Positions 9,317-40,111 of a stretch of 64,000 bases of DNA are shown piece after piece. Both the position numbers and the translations under genes were made by a program. The stretch is from Actinocorallia populi (GTDB taxonomy: Bacteria > Actinomycetota > Actinomycetes > Streptosporangiales > Streptosporangiaceae). The stretch covers positions 620,001 to 684,000 of the forward strand of contig NZ_PVZV01000003.1 in NCBI RefSeq assembly GCF_002995495.1, written 5' to 3'. The first letter of the stretch is position 1. Each line of letters opens with the position of its first letter. Below the pieces are notes generated by a model that did no database searches, was not told the DNA's origin, and saw only the letters and a list, made by a program, of their open reading frames with translations.

Positions 9317-10471
9317 ATGTCTGATGTCCCGCGTTTCTCGTGGTCCGACGTGTGCGCACGGAGGCTGGCCCGGCACGGGCTGGCCGCCCCGGCGGAGGGC
9401 GTACGGCCCGTTGACGTCGTCGCCGCGATGGCCGGCACGCACGCGCAGGTCATGTCAGCGGCCGAGCTGGCCATCGGGTTGCGCACCGCTGGAACGACTC
9501 GTCTCGACGTTCGCAAGGCGTTGTGGAGCGAGCGCAGCGTCATCAAGACGTTCGGGCCGCGCGGCACCGTTCATCTGCTGCCCGCTGAGGAGCTGCCGCT
9601 GTGGACGGCGGCTCTCTCGGCGGTCCCCGTGCCGGCAAGTACCTTCTCCGCTGATATCCGAATGACCTCCGAGCAGGCCGAGGAGGTCATCGCAGCGATC
9701 GCGAAGGTGCTGGACGGGGCCGAACTCACCATCGACGAGCTCAGCGCGGCGGTGATCGAGGCCACCGGCCCCTGGGCAGGCGACCTCGTCATGCCCGCCT
9801 TCCAGGGCATGTGGCCGCGTTGGCGGCAGGCCATGCACCTGGCCGGGATCCGTGGAGTGCTGTGTTTCGGTCCCAACAGGGGACGCAAGGTCACCTACAC
9901 CAGTCCGCAAAGGTGGCTTCCCGGCTTCCGTCCGGCCGAGACGCAGGCGGCCTTGGCGCACGTGGTGAAGCGCTACTTGTATGCGTACGGGCCGTCCACG
10001 CCGCAACGTTTCGCGCACTGGCTGAACGCCCCGACGCGCTGGGCCGTCGACCTCTTCGAGTCCTTGCGCGACGAACTCCAGCAGGTGAAGGTCGAAGGCG
10101 CCTCCGCGTGGGTGTCGCGCGGCGACCTGGAAGTACCGTCCGTCCCCCTGGAAGGCATCCGTCTTCTCCCCTACTTCGACGGTTACGCCTACCGCGTGGG
10201 CAACCAGCCGCCCGAGTTCCTCTACCCCGGCCGTGCCGCAGAACGCGCGCTCAAGGGCAACTTCCAGCTCCTCCTGGTCGACGGCGTCGTGGCGGGCCTG
10301 TGGCATCAGCGCCGCTCGGGCCGCCGCCTTCACCTCACCGTGGAATCCCTGATCGACCTCTCCCCCGCCCGGCTCGACGAGCTCGGCCGCCAGGCGGAAC
10401 GCGTCGCCGCCGTCCTGGAGGCCGTACCGGACCTGACCCTGGGCCCGGTCACGGTGGGCGGCCACGCCTGA
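9317..10471 (+). CDS. Winged-helix DNA-binding domain protein (AlkX/YcaQ-like HTH_42 family)
   Basis: This 384-residue protein fits the HTH_42 (PF06224) family, which includes the YcaQ/AlkZ DNA glycosylases that unhook crosslinks and many uncharacterised actinobacterial homologues. Family segments visible are LRTAGTTRLDVRKALWSERSVIKTFGPRGTVHLLPAEELPLW, a MPAFQGMWPRWRQ block and a C-terminal winged-helix part ending in FLYPGRAAERALKGNFQLLLVDGVVAGLW. In the N-terminal segment the QxQ-like position reads HAQ rather than QAQ, so glycosylase activity should not be assumed. It follows the epoxide hydrolase by 23 bases with GGAAGGA as ribosome site and is likely co-transcribed. Function in DNA repair is inferred from the family only. 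Confidence 0.8.
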   Translation: MSDVPRFSWSDVCARRLARHGLAAPAEGVRPVDVVAAMAGTHAQVMSAAELAIGLRTAGTTRLDVRKALWSERSVIKTFGPRGTVHLLPAEELPLWTAALSAVPVPASTFSADIRMTSEQAEEVIAAIAKVLDGAELTIDELSAAVIEATGPWAGDLVMPAFQGMWPRWRQAMHLAGIRGVLCFGPNRGRKVTYTSPQRWLPGFRPAETQAALAHVVKRYLYAYGPSTPQRFAHWLNAPTRWAVDLFESLRDELQQVKVEGASAWVSRGDLEVPSVPLEGIRLLPYFDGYAYRVGNQPPEFLYPGRAAERALKGNFQLLLVDGVVAGLWHQRRSGRRLHLTVESLIDLSPARLDELGRQAERVAAVLEAVPDLTLGPVTVGGHA

Positions 10472-10475
10472 CCGC

Positions 10476-10497
10476 CCTCCGGGGCCCCCGCCGGAGG
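10476..10497 (+). terminator. Possible weak terminator hairpin
   Basis: CCTCCGG, an 8-base loop, then CCGGAGG, placed directly after the winged-helix gene. There is no T-run and the stem is short, so attenuation rather than full termination is possible. Confidence 0.35.
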
Positions 10498-10514
10498 TCC
10501 CTATGGTGGAAGGC

Positions 10515-10973
10515 ATGGAGATCAGATTCATCCGGTTGCCCGGGAACCGGTGCGAGATCAGCGTCTCCGGCCGGGAGGGGCCGGATCTGCGGCTGCCCGC
10601 GGTGCGGGTGGGGCACATCCTGCCGCACGATCTCATGCACGCCGCCGTCGAGCGGGCCCTCGGGCTGGACGACGGCCTGTGGGGGGCAATCGCGCGGGGG
10701 GCGATGATCGACGGGACCACGTTCGCCGACGTCCGCCAGAACGGGGACACCGGGATGAAGAAGGCGCTGAGCCGGGGCGGCGACGGGATCATGGACGCCG
10801 AGATCAAGGTCAACACGGCTTACCGCGCCTGGCGGGGACTGCCCCTCCCCGCCGGACGCGCGCCCGCGCCACTGGACGCCGCCGAGCTGGAGCGGGCCGG
10901 CAAGGCCATCGCCGAGGCCGCCGAGCGGTGGGAGGGGACGCCCGAGGGCGGCGCGCTCGTCTGGCACTGGTGA
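10515..10973 (+). CDS. Conserved hypothetical protein
   Basis: A 152-residue soluble protein that I do not recognise. It starts MEIRFIRLPGNRCEISV and contains LPHDLMHAAVERALGLDDGLWGAIARGAMIDG, a pattern seen in uncharacterised actinobacterial proteins. The C-terminal part is rich in Ala/Glu helices (ELERAGKAIAEAAERW). There is no signal peptide or membrane segment. The ATG at 10515 is chosen because GGTGGAAGG lies just upstream, whereas an ATG at 10503 has no ribosome site. It stands alone between the winged-helix gene and a convergent TetR gene. Coding is supported by sustained codon bias and length. Confidence 0.75.
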   Translation: MEIRFIRLPGNRCEISVSGREGPDLRLPAVRVGHILPHDLMHAAVERALGLDDGLWGAIARGAMIDGTTFADVRQNGDTGMKKALSRGGDGIMDAEIKVNTAYRAWRGLPLPAGRAPAPLDAAELERAGKAIAEAAERWEGTPEGGALVWHW

Positions 10974-11056
10974 CCGCTTCGATACGGCCTGTGAACACCG
11001 TTGGGGCACTCGGTCTCGGCACCGGCCCCCGAACGAAGTCCGGCGCCGGGCACGCC

Positions 11057-11680
11057 TCAGTTCGTCAGATAGCGCATGAGCATGGTGACCAGGGCGTTCT
11101 CGAGGCGCTCGAGGTCATCGGGAGGGTCATGGGTGACGATGCGGTGGACCGCGCCTTCGACGGTCGTCACGACCAGGCGAGCCGCCATGGGCACGTCCGC
11201 GACGGTCACCTCGGGATCGGCCGCGAGCAGCGCCTGCAGCGCTTCGAGGAACTCCTCCTCGGCCTCATGGACCATCCGCAGGAACTCCGGGGTCCTCGGG
11301 GCCTCCTCGAAGATCACCCGGTGCAGCGGCGCGTCGTCGCGGTGGAGGTCGATGGCGATCCGCACGCACATGCGCAGCCTGCCCTCCAGGGAGTTCGGCG
11401 GCGCGCCCTCCTCGAACCGCCGCCGGAGCCGCGCGATCCCCTCCTCGGCGTGGGCCCCGGCCAGCTCCGCCAGGATCGCGTCCTTGTTCGGGAAGTACTG
11501 GTAGAGCGAACCGATGGAGTGCCCGGCCTCCTCCGCGATCCGGTTGGTGGTGCCCGCCGCGTACCCGTGCCGGGAGAAAACGCGAGCAGCCGCGTCGAGC
11601 AGCCGCTGCCGCGTCTCCATCGCACGCAGCTGACCTGGGCTTTTACGGGGCCTGAGCCGCTTTTCCACCACCGCGATCAC
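11057..11680 (-). CDS. TetR/AcrR family transcriptional regulator
   Basis: About 207 residues with a TetR N-terminal helix-turn-helix: RQRLLDAAARVFSRHGYAAGTTNRIAEEAGHSIGSLYQYFPNKDAILAELA. The remaining helical C-terminal domain would bind an unidentified ligand. GTG codons at 11680, 11671 and 11668 are all possible starts; the DNA-binding domain is intact with any of them. It is divergent from a small SRPBCC protein gene with about 50 bases between, so the two probably share a control region. No perfect dyad is visible there. Confidence 0.88.
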   Translation of the reverse strand: MIAVVEKRLRPRKSPGQLRAMETRQRLLDAAARVFSRHGYAAGTTNRIAEEAGHSIGSLYQYFPNKDAILAELAGAHAEEGIARLRRRFEEGAPPNSLEGRLRMCVRIAIDLHRDDAPLHRVIFEEAPRTPEFLRMVHEAEEEFLEALQALLAADPEVTVADVPMAARLVVTTVEGAVHRIVTHDPPDDLERLENALVTMLMRYLTN

Positions 11681-11730
11681 CTGCGTGAAAGCGAGTGGTC
11701 AACGGCTCGCGGCCCGCCCACACTCGAGGC

Positions 11731-12210
11731 ATGAAGACCTTCCACCGCACGACCGTTCTCCCCGCCGACGCCGACCGGGTCTGGGAGGCGATGCAGTACC
11801 CCGCCACCTTCCTGTACGTCTGCCGGGGCCTGCTGGGCGTCCCCTCCCTCGCCGGGCGCAGCGCCCCGCTCCGCGAGGGCGATCAGGAGACCGGCCTGCT
11901 CACGCTGTTCCATCTGATCCCGTTCTCCCGCCACACCATCCACATCGCCGAGGTGGACGCGGCCACCCGCACCATCCGCACCAGCGAACACGGCGGGCCG
12001 ATCCGGGTCTGGCGCCACACCCTGCACGCCGAGCCTCTCACCGACGGCCGCTGCCGGTACAGCGACACCGTCGAGTTCGACGCGGGCCGCCTCACCCCGC
12101 TCGTCGCCGCCGCCGTGAAGGTGCTCTACCGCCACCGGCACCGCCGCTGGCACGGGCTCGTCCGCAGACATCTGCGCCCTGCCGATGACCTGCGGAGGAA
12201 AGTTCGATGA
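11731..12210 (+). CDS. SRPBCC-superfamily (START/Bet v 1-like) protein
   Basis: A 159-residue protein that opens like many polyketide cyclase/SRPBCC proteins (FHRTTVLPADADRVWEAMQYPATFLYVCRGLLG) and ends with a basic helix (RHRHRRWHGLVRRHLRPADDLRRK). This fold forms a hydrophobic cavity for small lipophilic ligands. The ATG at 11731, preceded by GAGG, is preferred to an upstream GTG-proximal start because the SRPBCC core begins there. Divergent from a TetR gene, which is the likely regulator. No catalytic assignment is possible. Confidence 0.8.
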   Translation: MKTFHRTTVLPADADRVWEAMQYPATFLYVCRGLLGVPSLAGRSAPLREGDQETGLLTLFHLIPFSRHTIHIAEVDAATRTIRTSEHGGPIRVWRHTLHAEPLTDGRCRYSDTVEFDAGRLTPLVAAAVKVLYRHRHRRWHGLVRRHLRPADDLRRKVR

Positions 12211-12735
12211 TCCGTGTTTACCCCGAGCTGAAGATGGGGTACTTAACGTCACGAGACGATGACACGGCGTTAGGAGAGGGAGGATCCGGCCCAGAGAATC
12301 CAAAAAACCTGCGCAGCCCGCCCTCGGCAGGACCGAGCGCGTCCCGCCCGTACCGGTCGCGTCCCCGACGACCGGTACGGGAAGACGGGAGCACACCTCG
12401 GGCACTCGGTCCGCCGAGGACGGGCGACCCCAAGGACAGGGCCCGGCGGACCCGTATCCCCCGAGACGCCGCGCCCTCCGCCGGCCCGGCCGTGCCGACG
12501 CACCCGGGCCGGCTCCCCTTTCCGCCCCCGCCCCGCACCTGGCGCCCGCCCGAGCCCCGCCAACGCTTCCCGCGGCTGCTCCACCGGCGTTCTCCCTCGG
12601 GGTCCCGCCGACTCCTTCCGCCGGCGCTCCCGCCGGGGCGGCGCGCGGGTTCGCGGGCGCCGGTCCCCGTGGATGTCACCGGTCTTCCGTAGCCTGTCGC
12701 CCGGCAGCTCATCACCGAAGACCGAAGGGCGACCC
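12211..12735 (+). other. Non-coding stretch of about 525 bp
   Basis: Between the SRPBCC gene and the MmcQ-family gene. Short frames exist on both strands but they give Pro/Arg-rich low-complexity translations without ribosome sites or family resemblance, so I call no gene. The first 60 bases are AT-richer (TTTACC, TACTTAACG) than the rest. No clear operator, terminator or RNA was recognised. Confidence 0.5.
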
Positions 12736-13107
12736 ATGAACGCCGACTCCGTGACCGTCCGCCTGCGCGAGATCTGCCTGGCCTTTCCCGAGGCCGAGGA
12801 GAAGCCCTTCGGGGGCCACACCGCGCCCTCCTACCGGGTGCGGGACAAACTCTTCGCCATGACCGGCGAGGACGGGACGAGCCTCACCTTCAAGGCGGCC
12901 CCCGGCGTCCAGGAGGCGCTGGTCTCCGCCGACCCCGGGCGCTTCTTCGTGCCGCCCTACGTCGGCTCCAAGGGCTGGGTCGGCGCCCGGCTCGACGTCG
13001 ACCAGGACTGGGCGGAGCTCGCCGAGCTCCTGGAGGACAGCTACCGGCTCATCGCCCCCAAACGCCTCTCCGCCCGCCTCGACGCGGCCTCCCCCGACAC
13101 CGCCTGA
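12736..13107 (+). CDS. MmcQ/YjbR family protein
   Basis: The 123-residue product matches the MmcQ/YjbR family (double-wing CyaY-like fold): CLAFPEAEEKPFGGHTAPSYRVRDKLFAMT, then LTFKAAPGVQEALVSADPGRFFVPPYVGSKGWVGARLD, and a C-terminal helix with EDSYRLIAPKRL. The role of the family is unclear; some members have been proposed to bind DNA. The start is the ATG at 12736, with GAAGGGCG eight bases upstream. It stands alone, followed by a degenerate tandem repeat and a strong terminator. Confidence 0.85.
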   Translation: MNADSVTVRLREICLAFPEAEEKPFGGHTAPSYRVRDKLFAMTGEDGTSLTFKAAPGVQEALVSADPGRFFVPPYVGSKGWVGARLDVDQDWAELAELLEDSYRLIAPKRLSARLDAASPDTA

Positions 13108-37040: not shown

Positions 37041-37361
37041 TCAGCGGGGATGGTGGTGTTGCCCCGTCAGCGGGACGTGCTCCTCGCCCTCGGGAAGCAG
37101 GTCGGGCGCGGTCTGCGGGCCCGGGTCCGGCGCCGCGGCGGGAGCGGGCACGGGCGCCCCGGGCAGCCCCTGGGAGAGGACCTCGATGAACGCCGCCAGC
37201 TCGGCGGTCGGCAGGCGGAAGGTGGCGGCGCAGGTGTCGCGGTTCCACAGGCTGAGCACCACGAGGTCCACATCGGGGTGCCAGGACAACCGCAGCGCGC
37301 GGCCGTCACCGCGTGCGTCGAAGAAGACCTCGCCCGAGCGCGGCAGCGCGTAGCCAGACAT
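37041..37361 (-). CDS. Conserved hypothetical protein (106 aa)
   Basis: A 106-residue protein with an N-terminal beta-rich part (VFFDARGDGRALRLSWHPDVDLVVLSLWNRDTCAATFRL), a short helix (PTAELAAFIEVLSQGL) and a Pro/Ala-rich tail. This type recurs in actinomycetes without known function. It lies 40 bases upstream of the metallophosphoesterase gene, same strand. Confidence 0.72.
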   Translation of the reverse strand: MSGYALPRSGEVFFDARGDGRALRLSWHPDVDLVVLSLWNRDTCAATFRLPTAELAAFIEVLSQGLPGAPVPAPAAAPDPGPQTAPDLLPEGEEHVPLTGQHHHPR

Positions 37362-37407: not shown

Positions 37408-37815
37408 TCAGCCCACCCCGAAGCCGCGCGGGTCGTCCGAGGACACGATCTCCCTGCCCAGCGGCATCAGCGAGATCGGGATCATCTTCAGATTCGCCCA
37501 GCCGAACGGGATGCCGATGATCGACAGGAACAGCGGAATGCTGGTCGCGATATGACCCAGCACCAGCCACCAGCCCGCGAACACAAACCAGATCACGTTC
37601 CCGATGAACGACGGCGCACCAGCATCCGGCTTCTTCACCGCCGTTCGCCCGAACGGCCACAACACATACCCGGCGATACGGAAGGAAGCCACACCAAATG
37701 GAATAGTGAAAATAAGGATGCAGCAGATGATTCCGGCCAGTACATACCCGATGGCCATCCAGATGCCGCAGAAGAGCAGCCAGAGCGCGTTGAGCACAAG
37801 ACCGATCACCTTCAT
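37408..37815 (-). CDS. YccF-domain membrane protein
   Basis: A 135-residue membrane protein with two YccF (DUF307) modules: LVLNALWLLFCGIWMAIGYVLAGIICCILIFTIPFG and FIGNVIWFVFAGWWLVLGHIATSIPLFLSIIGIPFGWANLKM, each followed by a conserved Phe/Pro-Gly stretch. The ATG at 37815 has GGGAGG six bases upstream. Function unknown in the family. Upstream of it, codon use and composition change toward the recombinase region. Confidence 0.9.
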   Translation of the reverse strand: MKVIGLVLNALWLLFCGIWMAIGYVLAGIICCILIFTIPFGVASFRIAGYVLWPFGRTAVKKPDAGAPSFIGNVIWFVFAGWWLVLGHIATSIPLFLSIIGIPFGWANLKMIPISLMPLGREIVSSDDPRGFGVG

Positions 37816-37898: not shown

Positions 37899-38132
37899 CC
37901 GACCCATCGACCCGACGACCGGTTCCGTTTCAACCTGGTCCATGAGTTAGAACATATCGCGATACGCGCTGATTCCTCTCGCGTTTGATGGTCGACCCCA
38001 CGGCCTTCAAATCCGCGCGCTCGTCATAAAACTGCGGCAATCCGCGAGTAATTCATTTACTCTCGCCACACGTTGAATGCCCCGGCGACGGCTGCAACCG
38101 TCCCGGGGCCGGCCGACTGTTCAGGAGCCGAC

Positions 38133-40088
38133 ATGACGAATACAAGCACACACCTGTGCGGCACGACCGAAACGGTCGTCCACACCACAACGCCGCGTGC
38201 CCTCCGGGCCGTGGACTATCTCCGGGTGAGCACCGAGGAGCAGAGGTTCGGTTACGGCATCGCCAGCCAGGCGCGCAGGAACAGCCGCCACATCGCGAAC
38301 AAGGGCTGGGAGCACATCGGCACGTACAAGGACGAGGGGATCTCAGGCTTCAAGGAGATGGGCGAACGCCCAGATTTCGATCGGCTGATGGAGGACGCGA
38401 AACTCGGTGGATTCGACCTCGTCGTTGTGGAGAAGGGCGACCGTATCGGCCGTGTCGGCCGAGCCTTCTGGCGCTGGGTCTGGGCGCTGGAGGACATGGG
38501 GATCTTCGTGGCCATCACCGACCGGAACATCGACAACACCACTCCCGAGGGACAGGTGCAGATGCGCCGGGAGGCCGACTACGCCGAGACCGAAAGGGAG
38601 AACATCCGCTCACGCACCCAAGGCGGTCTCCAGGAGAAGGCCGAAGGGCCCGGGTCGCCGCACATCGGCGGCAAGCCTCCGTACGGCTACCGGATCGAAG
38701 GGAAGGGCGTCAAGGGCGCCTCGCGCTTGGTCATCGACGAAGCCGAGCAGGCTGTCGTACGCCGCGTCCACAACATGGTGGTGGTCGACGGGCTCAACCT
38801 GCGCCAGTGCGCCATCCGTCTCAACGCCGAGGGGATCACCTGCCGTTCGGGACGTCCCTGGTCGGCGGCCAACCTCCGCGATCGAATCATGTCCCGTGCC
38901 GTGCTCGATGCCGAACTGATCTTCCGTGGCCCGAACGCCAGGACCGATGCGGACGGCAGGCCGCTCTGGGGCGAGTCGGTGACGATCTCGCTGCCGCGCG
39001 TTCTGTCCGAGGACGAGGCCGCCGCACTCCGCCGAAAGGTCGCCGCGCGGGCGAAGTCCAGCAGCCGCAACCGTGCGGTCTATCCGCTCACGGGCCGTCT
39101 GATCGGCTTCTGCACGGCTCCGTACACCGGCATCAGCCATGAGTCGCTCTCGTACGGTCGTCGCAGCTACCGGTGCCGCGGCAAGGCTGCCACTGTGCCT
39201 GGTCAAGAGGTCTGCGACTGCTCGTACGTGGACGCCGAGGCGGTGGAGAAGCGCGTCTGGTCGGAGATCGTCACCCTCCTCGGCGACTCGCGCAAGCTGG
39301 AAGCGCTGGCCGCCGAATGGGTCGGCATGTCCCATGGCGACCAGGCTGTGCATGCCGAGCGGATCGCCGGCCTCGACCGGCAGATCGATGCCCTGAAGGC
39401 TTCCACCACCGCCGTGATCCTGGTATCCGCCAAGCAGCAGCAGCCCCCGGACGCCATCGCCACCGCGACGTCGGTCCTCAACGAAGAGTTGCAACAACTG
39501 GAGGAAATGCGCGCTGAGGCCGCTGCATGGCTGGCCGAGGTCGAGGAAGCCGATCGCCGGGCCCGCAACCTCAAGGCCCTCGCCGAACCGGCTCAGCACC
39601 GACTGGCGGACATGACTCTGGAAGATCAGAGTGAGGTGCTCGGCCTACTCAACGTGAAGGTGTTCATCGAGGGACCGGTGCCCGTTCGAGCCGGAGGCCG
39701 CGCCTGCACCGTGCAAGCCTGGTACAGGGCGGCCGAAGTGAACGTTCCGGCAACCGACCTGACGGATGAGCAGTGGACACGGGTCTCCCACCTGCTCCCC
39801 ACCGGCCGACACGATCGCGTACGACGCTCGGTGGACGCCATCTTCGCCAAGGCCCGGACCGGCGCCTCCTGGCCGAGGCTCCGCGAGGAGTACGGCTCAC
39901 CGAACACGGCCTCGAAGTACTTCAACAAGTGGGTCGCACAGGGAATTTGGGACGAGCTCGACGCGGCGCTTGCGGAGGTGGCACGAGTGCCCGTTCCTGC
40001 GTGCGATTTCCTCCCGCCTATGCGAATCGAAGGGCTGGTTGATCCCCGCGTGATACTGAGCGCCGAGGAACGATCCCGAGCCAGATGA
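38133..40088 (+). CDS. Large serine recombinase with C-terminal DUF4096-like domain
   Basis: A 651-residue protein. The N-terminal resolvase domain has the catalytic Ser33 in YLRVSTEEQ, and Arg/Asp partners in VVVEKGDRIGRVGRAFWRWVW. Then comes the recombinase domain (PPYGYRI...LNAEGITCRSGRPWSAANLRDRI), a zinc-ribbon-like segment with fewer Cys than usual (GFCTAPYTG...YRCRG...CDC) and a coiled coil (about 430-500). Residues about 540-615 (LTDEQWTRVSHLLP ... ARTGASWPRLREEYG ... FNKWVAQGIWDEL) resemble DUF4096, the N-terminal domain of IS5-type transposases. Start at the ATG at 38133 with AGGAG upstream. Codons are less GC-biased than neighbours, a sign of transfer. Likely the integrase of a minimal or decayed element. 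Confidence 0.9.
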   Translation: MTNTSTHLCGTTETVVHTTTPRALRAVDYLRVSTEEQRFGYGIASQARRNSRHIANKGWEHIGTYKDEGISGFKEMGERPDFDRLMEDAKLGGFDLVVVEKGDRIGRVGRAFWRWVWALEDMGIFVAITDRNIDNTTPEGQVQMRREADYAETERENIRSRTQGGLQEKAEGPGSPHIGGKPPYGYRIEGKGVKGASRLVIDEAEQAVVRRVHNMVVVDGLNLRQCAIRLNAEGITCRSGRPWSAANLRDRIMSRAVLDAELIFRGPNARTDADGRPLWGESVTISLPRVLSEDEAAALRRKVAARAKSSSRNRAVYPLTGRLIGFCTAPYTGISHESLSYGRRSYRCRGKAATVPGQEVCDCSYVDAEAVEKRVWSEIVTLLGDSRKLEALAAEWVGMSHGDQAVHAERIAGLDRQIDALKASTTAVILVSAKQQQPPDAIATATSVLNEELQQLEEMRAEAAAWLAEVEEADRRARNLKALAEPAQHRLADMTLEDQSEVLGLLNVKVFIEGPVPVRAGGRACTVQAWYRAAEVNVPATDLTDEQWTRVSHLLPTGRHDRVRRSVDAIFAKARTGASWPRLREEYGSPNTASKYFNKWVAQGIWDELDAALAEVARVPVPACDFLPPMRIEGLVDPRVILSAEERSRAR

Positions 40089-40111
40089 GATTCAGGATCG
40101 TGCGCATACCT

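Follow-up and report, generated by a model that had tools for sequence, protein, structure and literature searches.

A large serine recombinase from Actinocorallia populi with an IS5-transposase-type DUF4096 domain nested in its terminal hairpin

What is a transposase-type domain doing inside a site-specific integrase? The question is raised by a gene of Actinocorallia populi within a window of 64,000 nucleotides (assembly GCF_002995495.1, contig NZ_PVZV01000003.1, positions 620,001 to 684,000). Its product, judged from the sequence, is a complete large serine recombinase (LSR, integrase), predicted to bind zinc and to act on attachment (att) sites attB x attP. A helical DUF4096 domain, homologous to the N-termini of IS5 transposases, is nested inside the last beta-hairpin of DNA-binding domain 2. 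The best explanation, which we consider about evenly balanced between right and wrong, is that this is the stranded integrase of an actinomycete integrative and conjugative element (AICE) in yccF, and that the nested domain adds DNA contacts aiding recognition of att half-sites. The integrase features are as follows (window positions; res, residues).

38133..40088, + strand: LSR coding sequence, 651 aa, frame open, catalytic Ser33
38208..38645, + strand: Resolvase catalytic domain, res 26-171 (Pfam PF00239, E 2.7e-29)
38742..38897, + strand: Recombinase domain match, res 204-255 (Pfam PF07508, E 3.4e-5)
39084..39269, + strand: zinc-ribbon domain (Zn_ribbon_recom), res 318-379 (Pfam PF13408, E 4.8e-6), without the first Cys of CxxC
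39288..39605, + strand: coiled-coil region, helices within res 386-491 (AlphaFold2 secondary structure)
39657..39668, + strand: terminal beta-hairpin, first strand, res 509-512 (AlphaFold2)
39759..39959, + strand: nested DUF4096 (IS5-transposase-type) helical domain, res 543-609 (Pfam PF13340; domain-model mean pLDDT 87.2)
40020..40031, + strand: terminal beta-hairpin, second strand, res 630-633 (AlphaFold2)

The open reading frame starts at ATG 38133 and stops at 40088, with a Shine-Dalgarno sequence AGGAG at 38123-38127. The initial annotation had described a full LSR layout, and this is what was found: the Resolvase, Recombinase and zinc-ribbon matches all lie above the Pfam cut-off, and AlphaFold2 predicts the coiled-coil helices. 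The protein matches a PHROGs integrase family (E 6.9e-78), and the structures of Bxb1 (9iu2), phiC31 (9tep) and SPbeta (9dxd) integrases match most of its model. These known enzymes share the order of catalytic, recombinase, zinc-ribbon and coiled-coil parts, but the window LSR differs from them in the nested DUF4096 domain and the absent first zinc cysteine. Ser33 is invariant in 24 of 24 aligned LSRs, as are C327 and C348, and C361 and C363 are also present in the window protein. A zinc-ribbon Cys pair had been reported missing; in fact one cysteine is absent, the first of the CxxC, and C361/C363 are kept. Since this cysteine is absent in 23 of the 24 rows (read by eye; the exception, L013, has CVC), its loss is a trait of the subfamily. 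The window protein retains a DRIGR motif in the alignment. In L048, L051-L055, L060, L063, L064 and L068 the motif is replaced by GRAIGR or similar, which moves by one position the arginine that we take to be the equivalent of gamma-delta R68.

The identity of the extra block is seen directly in the profile searches. DUF4096 matches residues 543-609 at E 7.9e-17 (61.7 bits against a curated cut-off of 34.3, profile positions 1-75 of 76), in good agreement with the block proposed earlier at about 540-615, and the last 149 residues searched alone give E 1.1e-17. The relation to IS5-type transposases held as well: the NCBIfam IS5 transposase profile NF033580 matches residues 541-618 at E 6.6e-16, although its 58.6 bits fall under a cut-off of 110 that is set for the whole protein. 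These scores indicate that the DUF4096 match is not due to chance and that the block is homologous to the N-termini of IS5-family transposases (NF033580, PF13340). In NF033580 the domain is N-terminal (profile positions 3-86 of 258), whereas in the window LSR it lies near the C-terminus. A Pfam scan at E up to 10 found no DDE catalytic domain, by which an IS5 transposase would be recognized, in the integrase protein. K573 is invariant in 23 of 23 LSR blocks, while the IS5 rows mostly have Arg there (6 of 9). A phmmer search with the block returned no chain named transposase at E up to 10, and its match to prostaglandin E synthase 3 (2.9e-4) was read as chance likeness in SWPRL..FN.W. The block is also covered by phrog_6657, a family of unknown function, at 3.3e-16. 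Eight of 11 virus records matched this family at E 0.01, but by their coordinates all eight matches fall within integrase genes and so add no independent evidence.

Eight further matches to DUF4096 lie elsewhere in the genome at E 0.001, which would suit an artefact in which an IS5 fragment had landed in frame in one genome. The chance of this is vanishingly small: the same nested block is seen in Streptomyces, Kitasatospora, Streptosporangium, Nocardiopsaceae and viral contigs, a recurrence that rules out a chance or single-genome origin of the match.

The domain had been taken for a fusion. It is indeed an extra domain; however, it is nested rather than appended as a C-terminal tail. In the AlphaFold2 model the strands 509-512 and 630-633 flank the helical block, with pLDDT of 78-92 over 541-620. 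The full model was built from 19 sequences and has a mean pLDDT of 77.9 and a pTM of 0.36, so domain placement is unsure. The nesting is also observed directly in relatives that have no block: in L064-L066 and L124 the flanking stretches are joined directly, in L064 and L124 by a short loop between the first-strand and second-strand stretches, and the more distant block-free LSRs of G107 and G244 have a similar short join in sequence. In the integrase-core tree L064 is sister to L068, which carries the block (support 100/98); the block was therefore most simply lost in L064, and the domain is removable. The initial annotation had allowed that the block might prove to be the ordinary C-terminus of its integrase family with no relation to transposases. 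The first half describes the subfamily well and the second fails, given the DUF4096/IS5 homology. In known LSRs the coiled-coil sits within DNA-binding domain 2, and direction is set by the differing position of the DNA-binding domain 2 motif on attP and attB (PMC12412911). The DUF4096 block would thus be a second insertion in this domain, besides the coiled-coil.

How widespread is this arrangement? A search of 60 relatives gave as close kin the LSRs of G003 (66% identity), G008 (45%) and G019 (47%, in two pieces). Collecting homologues, as had been proposed, showed the block at the same place in all ten relatives from the genome_contigs scan (proteins read; two of these loci are G003 and G008 again) and in seven of 12 viral-contig loci. 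The remaining five comprised three identical proteins without the block, one locus cut by the contig end and one partial and distant match. L148 and L151 also carry the block (Pfam 3.9e-11 and 1.1e-20). Across 296 genomes of the class there were eight matches at E 1e-60, four of which extend through the block (G000, the window's genome, G008, G155 and G308) and four of which end before it. In these sequence searches LSRs with a nested DUF4096 domain are thus real but uncommon. In G019 the LSR copy (L044, about 9623-12744; L012, 2925-3794) has a transposase gene, IS3-type by eye, inserted between the coiled-coil and the DUF4096 block.

Phages encode such proteins too. The C-terminal 153 residues matched 25 annotated phage records, of which 20 are Streptomyces phages, partly duplicate records of one phage. 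At least 80% of the query is covered in 20 of the 25 records; the five records from other phages cover 41-55%, and one of these matches is a small coding sequence overlapped by the next one, as in a split transposase. The integrases of Arquatrovirinae phages (phiHau3, Hank144, Sentinel, Nishikigoi and phiScoe1) have the block at the same place and are about 28-32% identical to the window protein. In contrast to the latter, DUF4096 scores below the Pfam cut-off in all five scanned (2.5e-7 to 0.0041), and the trees place them on a separate branch with long branch lengths.

Two histories of the block are consistent with the trees. The DUF4096 tree permits a single LSR origin (73/76; 77% of bootstrap trees); its IS5 set comes from nine of 36 loci tried, the others having no motif match (25), junk (one) or a duplicate (one). 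The integrase-core tree, with 27 rows and G141 left out for want of a usable frame, requires block presence to change twice. A single gain followed by losses would fit, and so would two separate gains. The transfer probably ran from an IS5-transposase lineage into the LSR, the domain being inserted in the last hairpin loop of DNA-binding domain 2 in an actinobacterial LSR subfamily.

Where did this integrase come from? The neighboring DNA offers an answer, and the relevant features are these.

37408..37815, - strand: yccF-B (element-associated type), intact (Pfam YccF 9.8e-36; typed by identity of its halves)
near 37692-37708: probable att core, AT-rich, inside yccF-B
38079..38132, + strand: integrase leader, with a GC-rich hairpin at 38079-38109, then a small stem holding the Shine-Dalgarno sequence (fold z -3.02)
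40065..40078, + strand: element right end (GAGGAACGATCCCG), identical to the LSR end of the Kitasatospora element
40078..40107, - strand: native-type yccF N-terminus remnant MRTILNLIWL, overlapping the 3' end of the integrase gene

At the LSR end, the first ten codons of a native-type yccF follow directly on GAGGAACGATCCCG, in the order 10 to 1. A tblastn search with the YccF of G002, of the same genus, gives eight of ten identical residues in this remnant at an E of 0.095 alone; its position and the relatives support it. In G002 itself, MRTLLNVIWL starts yccF about 90 bp from the DAGK gene. Both halves of yccF-B show 79-82% nucleotide identity to G003 and G060 against 63-68% to the same-genus G001 and G002, which suggests that yccF-B is, over its full length, of foreign origin or carried by the element. 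As both halves are alike in identity, the idea of a chimera in G000, with the N-half from the element and the C-half from the host, is not supported. The window's interval between the metallophosphoesterase and DAGK genes holds only a short open reading frame, yccF-B and the integrase; the RepSA, FtsK-type translocase and GntR genes that complete an AICE gene set are not in this interval. The short frame, on the minus strand at 37041-37361 between metallophosphoesterase and yccF-B, has a partial DNA match at the corresponding position in G003, with no match in the G001 and G002 loci and none in Pfam. The composition is lower in GC than the surroundings, as first remarked: 0.60-0.68 over 37.5-40.2 kb in 500-base windows, against about 0.69-0.80 in most flanking ones, with a second dip (0.61) at 45.5 kb. 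What remains in the window thus looks like both ends of an AICE-like element that has lost its middle, along with most of the host half of its right junction. An element of this type would have entered yccF and been stranded by internal deletion, and the present copy presumably cannot excise.

The integrase could instead be a domesticated, still useful solo enzyme paired with yccF. Its frame is intact, and G003, from another genus, shares the order metallophosphoesterase, yccF-B, LSR, with LSRs 66% identical. This is very unlikely, however: the AICE-borne Kitasatospora LSR is as close (69%), within the genus G001 lacks an LSR match and the weak match in G002 is to a different recombinase, and the G003 contig stops 126 bp after the LSR gene, so that a larger element is possible there. 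The LSR identity between G000 and G003 is near that of DAGK (62%), as vertical inheritance of the pair would give, but with the Kitasatospora LSR just as close such descent is no more than possible.

The stranded-element reading draws on relatives that are still complete. In Kitasatospora (G060) GntR, FtsK and RepSA genes form a stretch bounded on one side by the LSR, which identifies an AICE; the N-half of yccF directly adjoins the LSR end, and the opposite end, about 12 kb off, has a full yccF. S. albireticuli (G062) has the same arrangement plus a separate yccF C-half. The yccF location of these two AICEs is observed directly, and yccF is firmly supported as a target gene of the subfamily. 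Between their att sites, the L048 and L051 elements carry the integrase together with RepSA for replication initiation, an FtsK-type translocase and a GntR regulator. In L078 (G062 C10:141500-156500) the surroundings of one AICE contain a complete yccF as well as a C-half and an N-half that stand apart, which hints that the yccF site was used more than once or that yccF was element-borne. Excerpts of an AICE survey count serine recombinases in 19 of 144 elements (PMC3218068).

A second target gene is likely dprA. In L052-L057 and L060 the LSR frame continues for about 95-135 codons into a tail resembling the end of DprA. In G008 this tail lies upstream of a RidA-type gene (Pfam) and of genes resembling xerC and rpsB by eye. 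G344, one and the same genome as G008, has an N-terminal part of DprA on the contig and strand of the LSR, some 16 kb away. The Pfam match of the tail to DprA_WH is weak (L052 0.0013, L053 0.045; L056 not listed, L043 no family), and other winged-helix families score equally or better. The integrase frame of L043, L052-L057 and L060 lacks its own stop codon at the junction and continues into host sequence; integrated and circular forms of the probable dprA elements may produce integrases with different tails. As yccF and, probably, dprA are each used by several relatives, this looks like ordinary site-specific integration. Altered target choice through a borrowed DNA-binding domain, as the initial annotation suggested, is a hypothesis.

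The leader of the integrase gene also ties it to these elements. Over 80-83 bp around the LSR start, identity is 86% to G060, 84% to L050 (S. canum) and 78% to G062, and G003 has nothing comparable; the elements compared show no clear match to the stretch of roughly 250 bp that precedes the leader region. A stem of CGACT..GGAGTCG or CAGTC..GGACTG encloses the Shine-Dalgarno sequence in the window, L048, L050, L051, L058, L061, L062, L068 and L151. It stands immediately ahead of the start codon, or of an ATG further upstream, in nine of 17 leaders, against about 0.7 of 17 expected from shuffles, for a pattern that was picked after inspection of the leaders. Translational control of the integrase by this stem is possible.

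What, then, would the nested domain do? The enzyme presumably acts as an ordinary LSR, with dimers on attP and attB, serine-mediated cleavage and subunit rotation. The helical domain would most likely contact DNA beside DNA-binding domain 2, helping to hold or discriminate att half-sites. Among the roles considered, DNA contact ranks first, partner contact second and a passenger third. In a structural search the block gave weak matches, mostly to DNA- or promoter-binding proteins, and the fold similarity is weak. Two points weigh against the explanation as a whole: the yccF remnant is short, and two of the shared residues were selected by the search motif itself. A narrower form of DNA contact, in which the domain reads a second motif beside the core att half-site, a two-motif recognition derived from the IS5 lineage, is rather unlikely; its role would resemble that of the arm-binding domain of lambda integrase.

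The domain might instead be a protein-protein module that docks a recombination directionality factor (RDF) or holds the coiled-coils, controlling direction and not DNA recognition. The block is not strongly basic, and it follows the coiled-coil within the strands that close DNA-binding domain 2 (AlphaFold2, structure comparison). In the SPbeta integrase-RDF structure the coiled-coils move with this domain and the RDF controls their trajectory (PMC12412911). But the weak structural matches noted above point toward DNA, and no RDF is known for elements carrying nested-block LSRs, though no RDF search was made. We regard such a module as possible, if somewhat doubtful.

Finally, the block could be a functionless passenger of an old insertion, tolerated in the hairpin loop, given that the lineages of L064-L066 and L124 manage cleanly without it. 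This is unlikely, as the core residues of the block are preserved in alignment across divergent LSRs of AICEs and phages. Between G000 and L048 the block has a nonsynonymous divergence (dN) of 0.189 and a synonymous divergence (dS) of 0.81, compared with 0.212 and 0.902 for the whole gene. The block and the remainder of the gene are therefore under similar constraint, which speaks against a passenger.

DUF4368, likewise an additional Pfam domain in an LSR clade, is a precedent for a link between an added domain and targeting. In excerpts of Durrant et al. (2022; PMC10083194) it occurs in 63% of a multi-targeting LSR clade and in 0.73% of site-specific LSRs. DUF4368 is a different domain and goes with multi-targeting, whereas the nested-block relatives share single target genes. 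The literature search, with subscription papers and preprints outside its scope, found no paper linking DUF4096 with a serine integrase, and none on yccF and a serine integrase, phiHau3 and its integrase, or a serine integrase with dprA and attB. Excerpts of the Arquatrovirinae integrase literature hold nothing on the block. The recurrent LSR-DUF4096 architecture was thus found named in no paper of the literature searched.

LSRs are major genome-writing tools, and how they choose their sites and direction is still to be explained. This subfamily offers a natural experiment, with relatives that have or lack the nested domain and with readable integration sites in yccF and probably dprA. Comparing block-bearing with block-free relatives could reveal the role of an added domain next to DNA-binding domain 2. 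The nested block itself suggests that domains have passed between DDE transposases and serine integrases.
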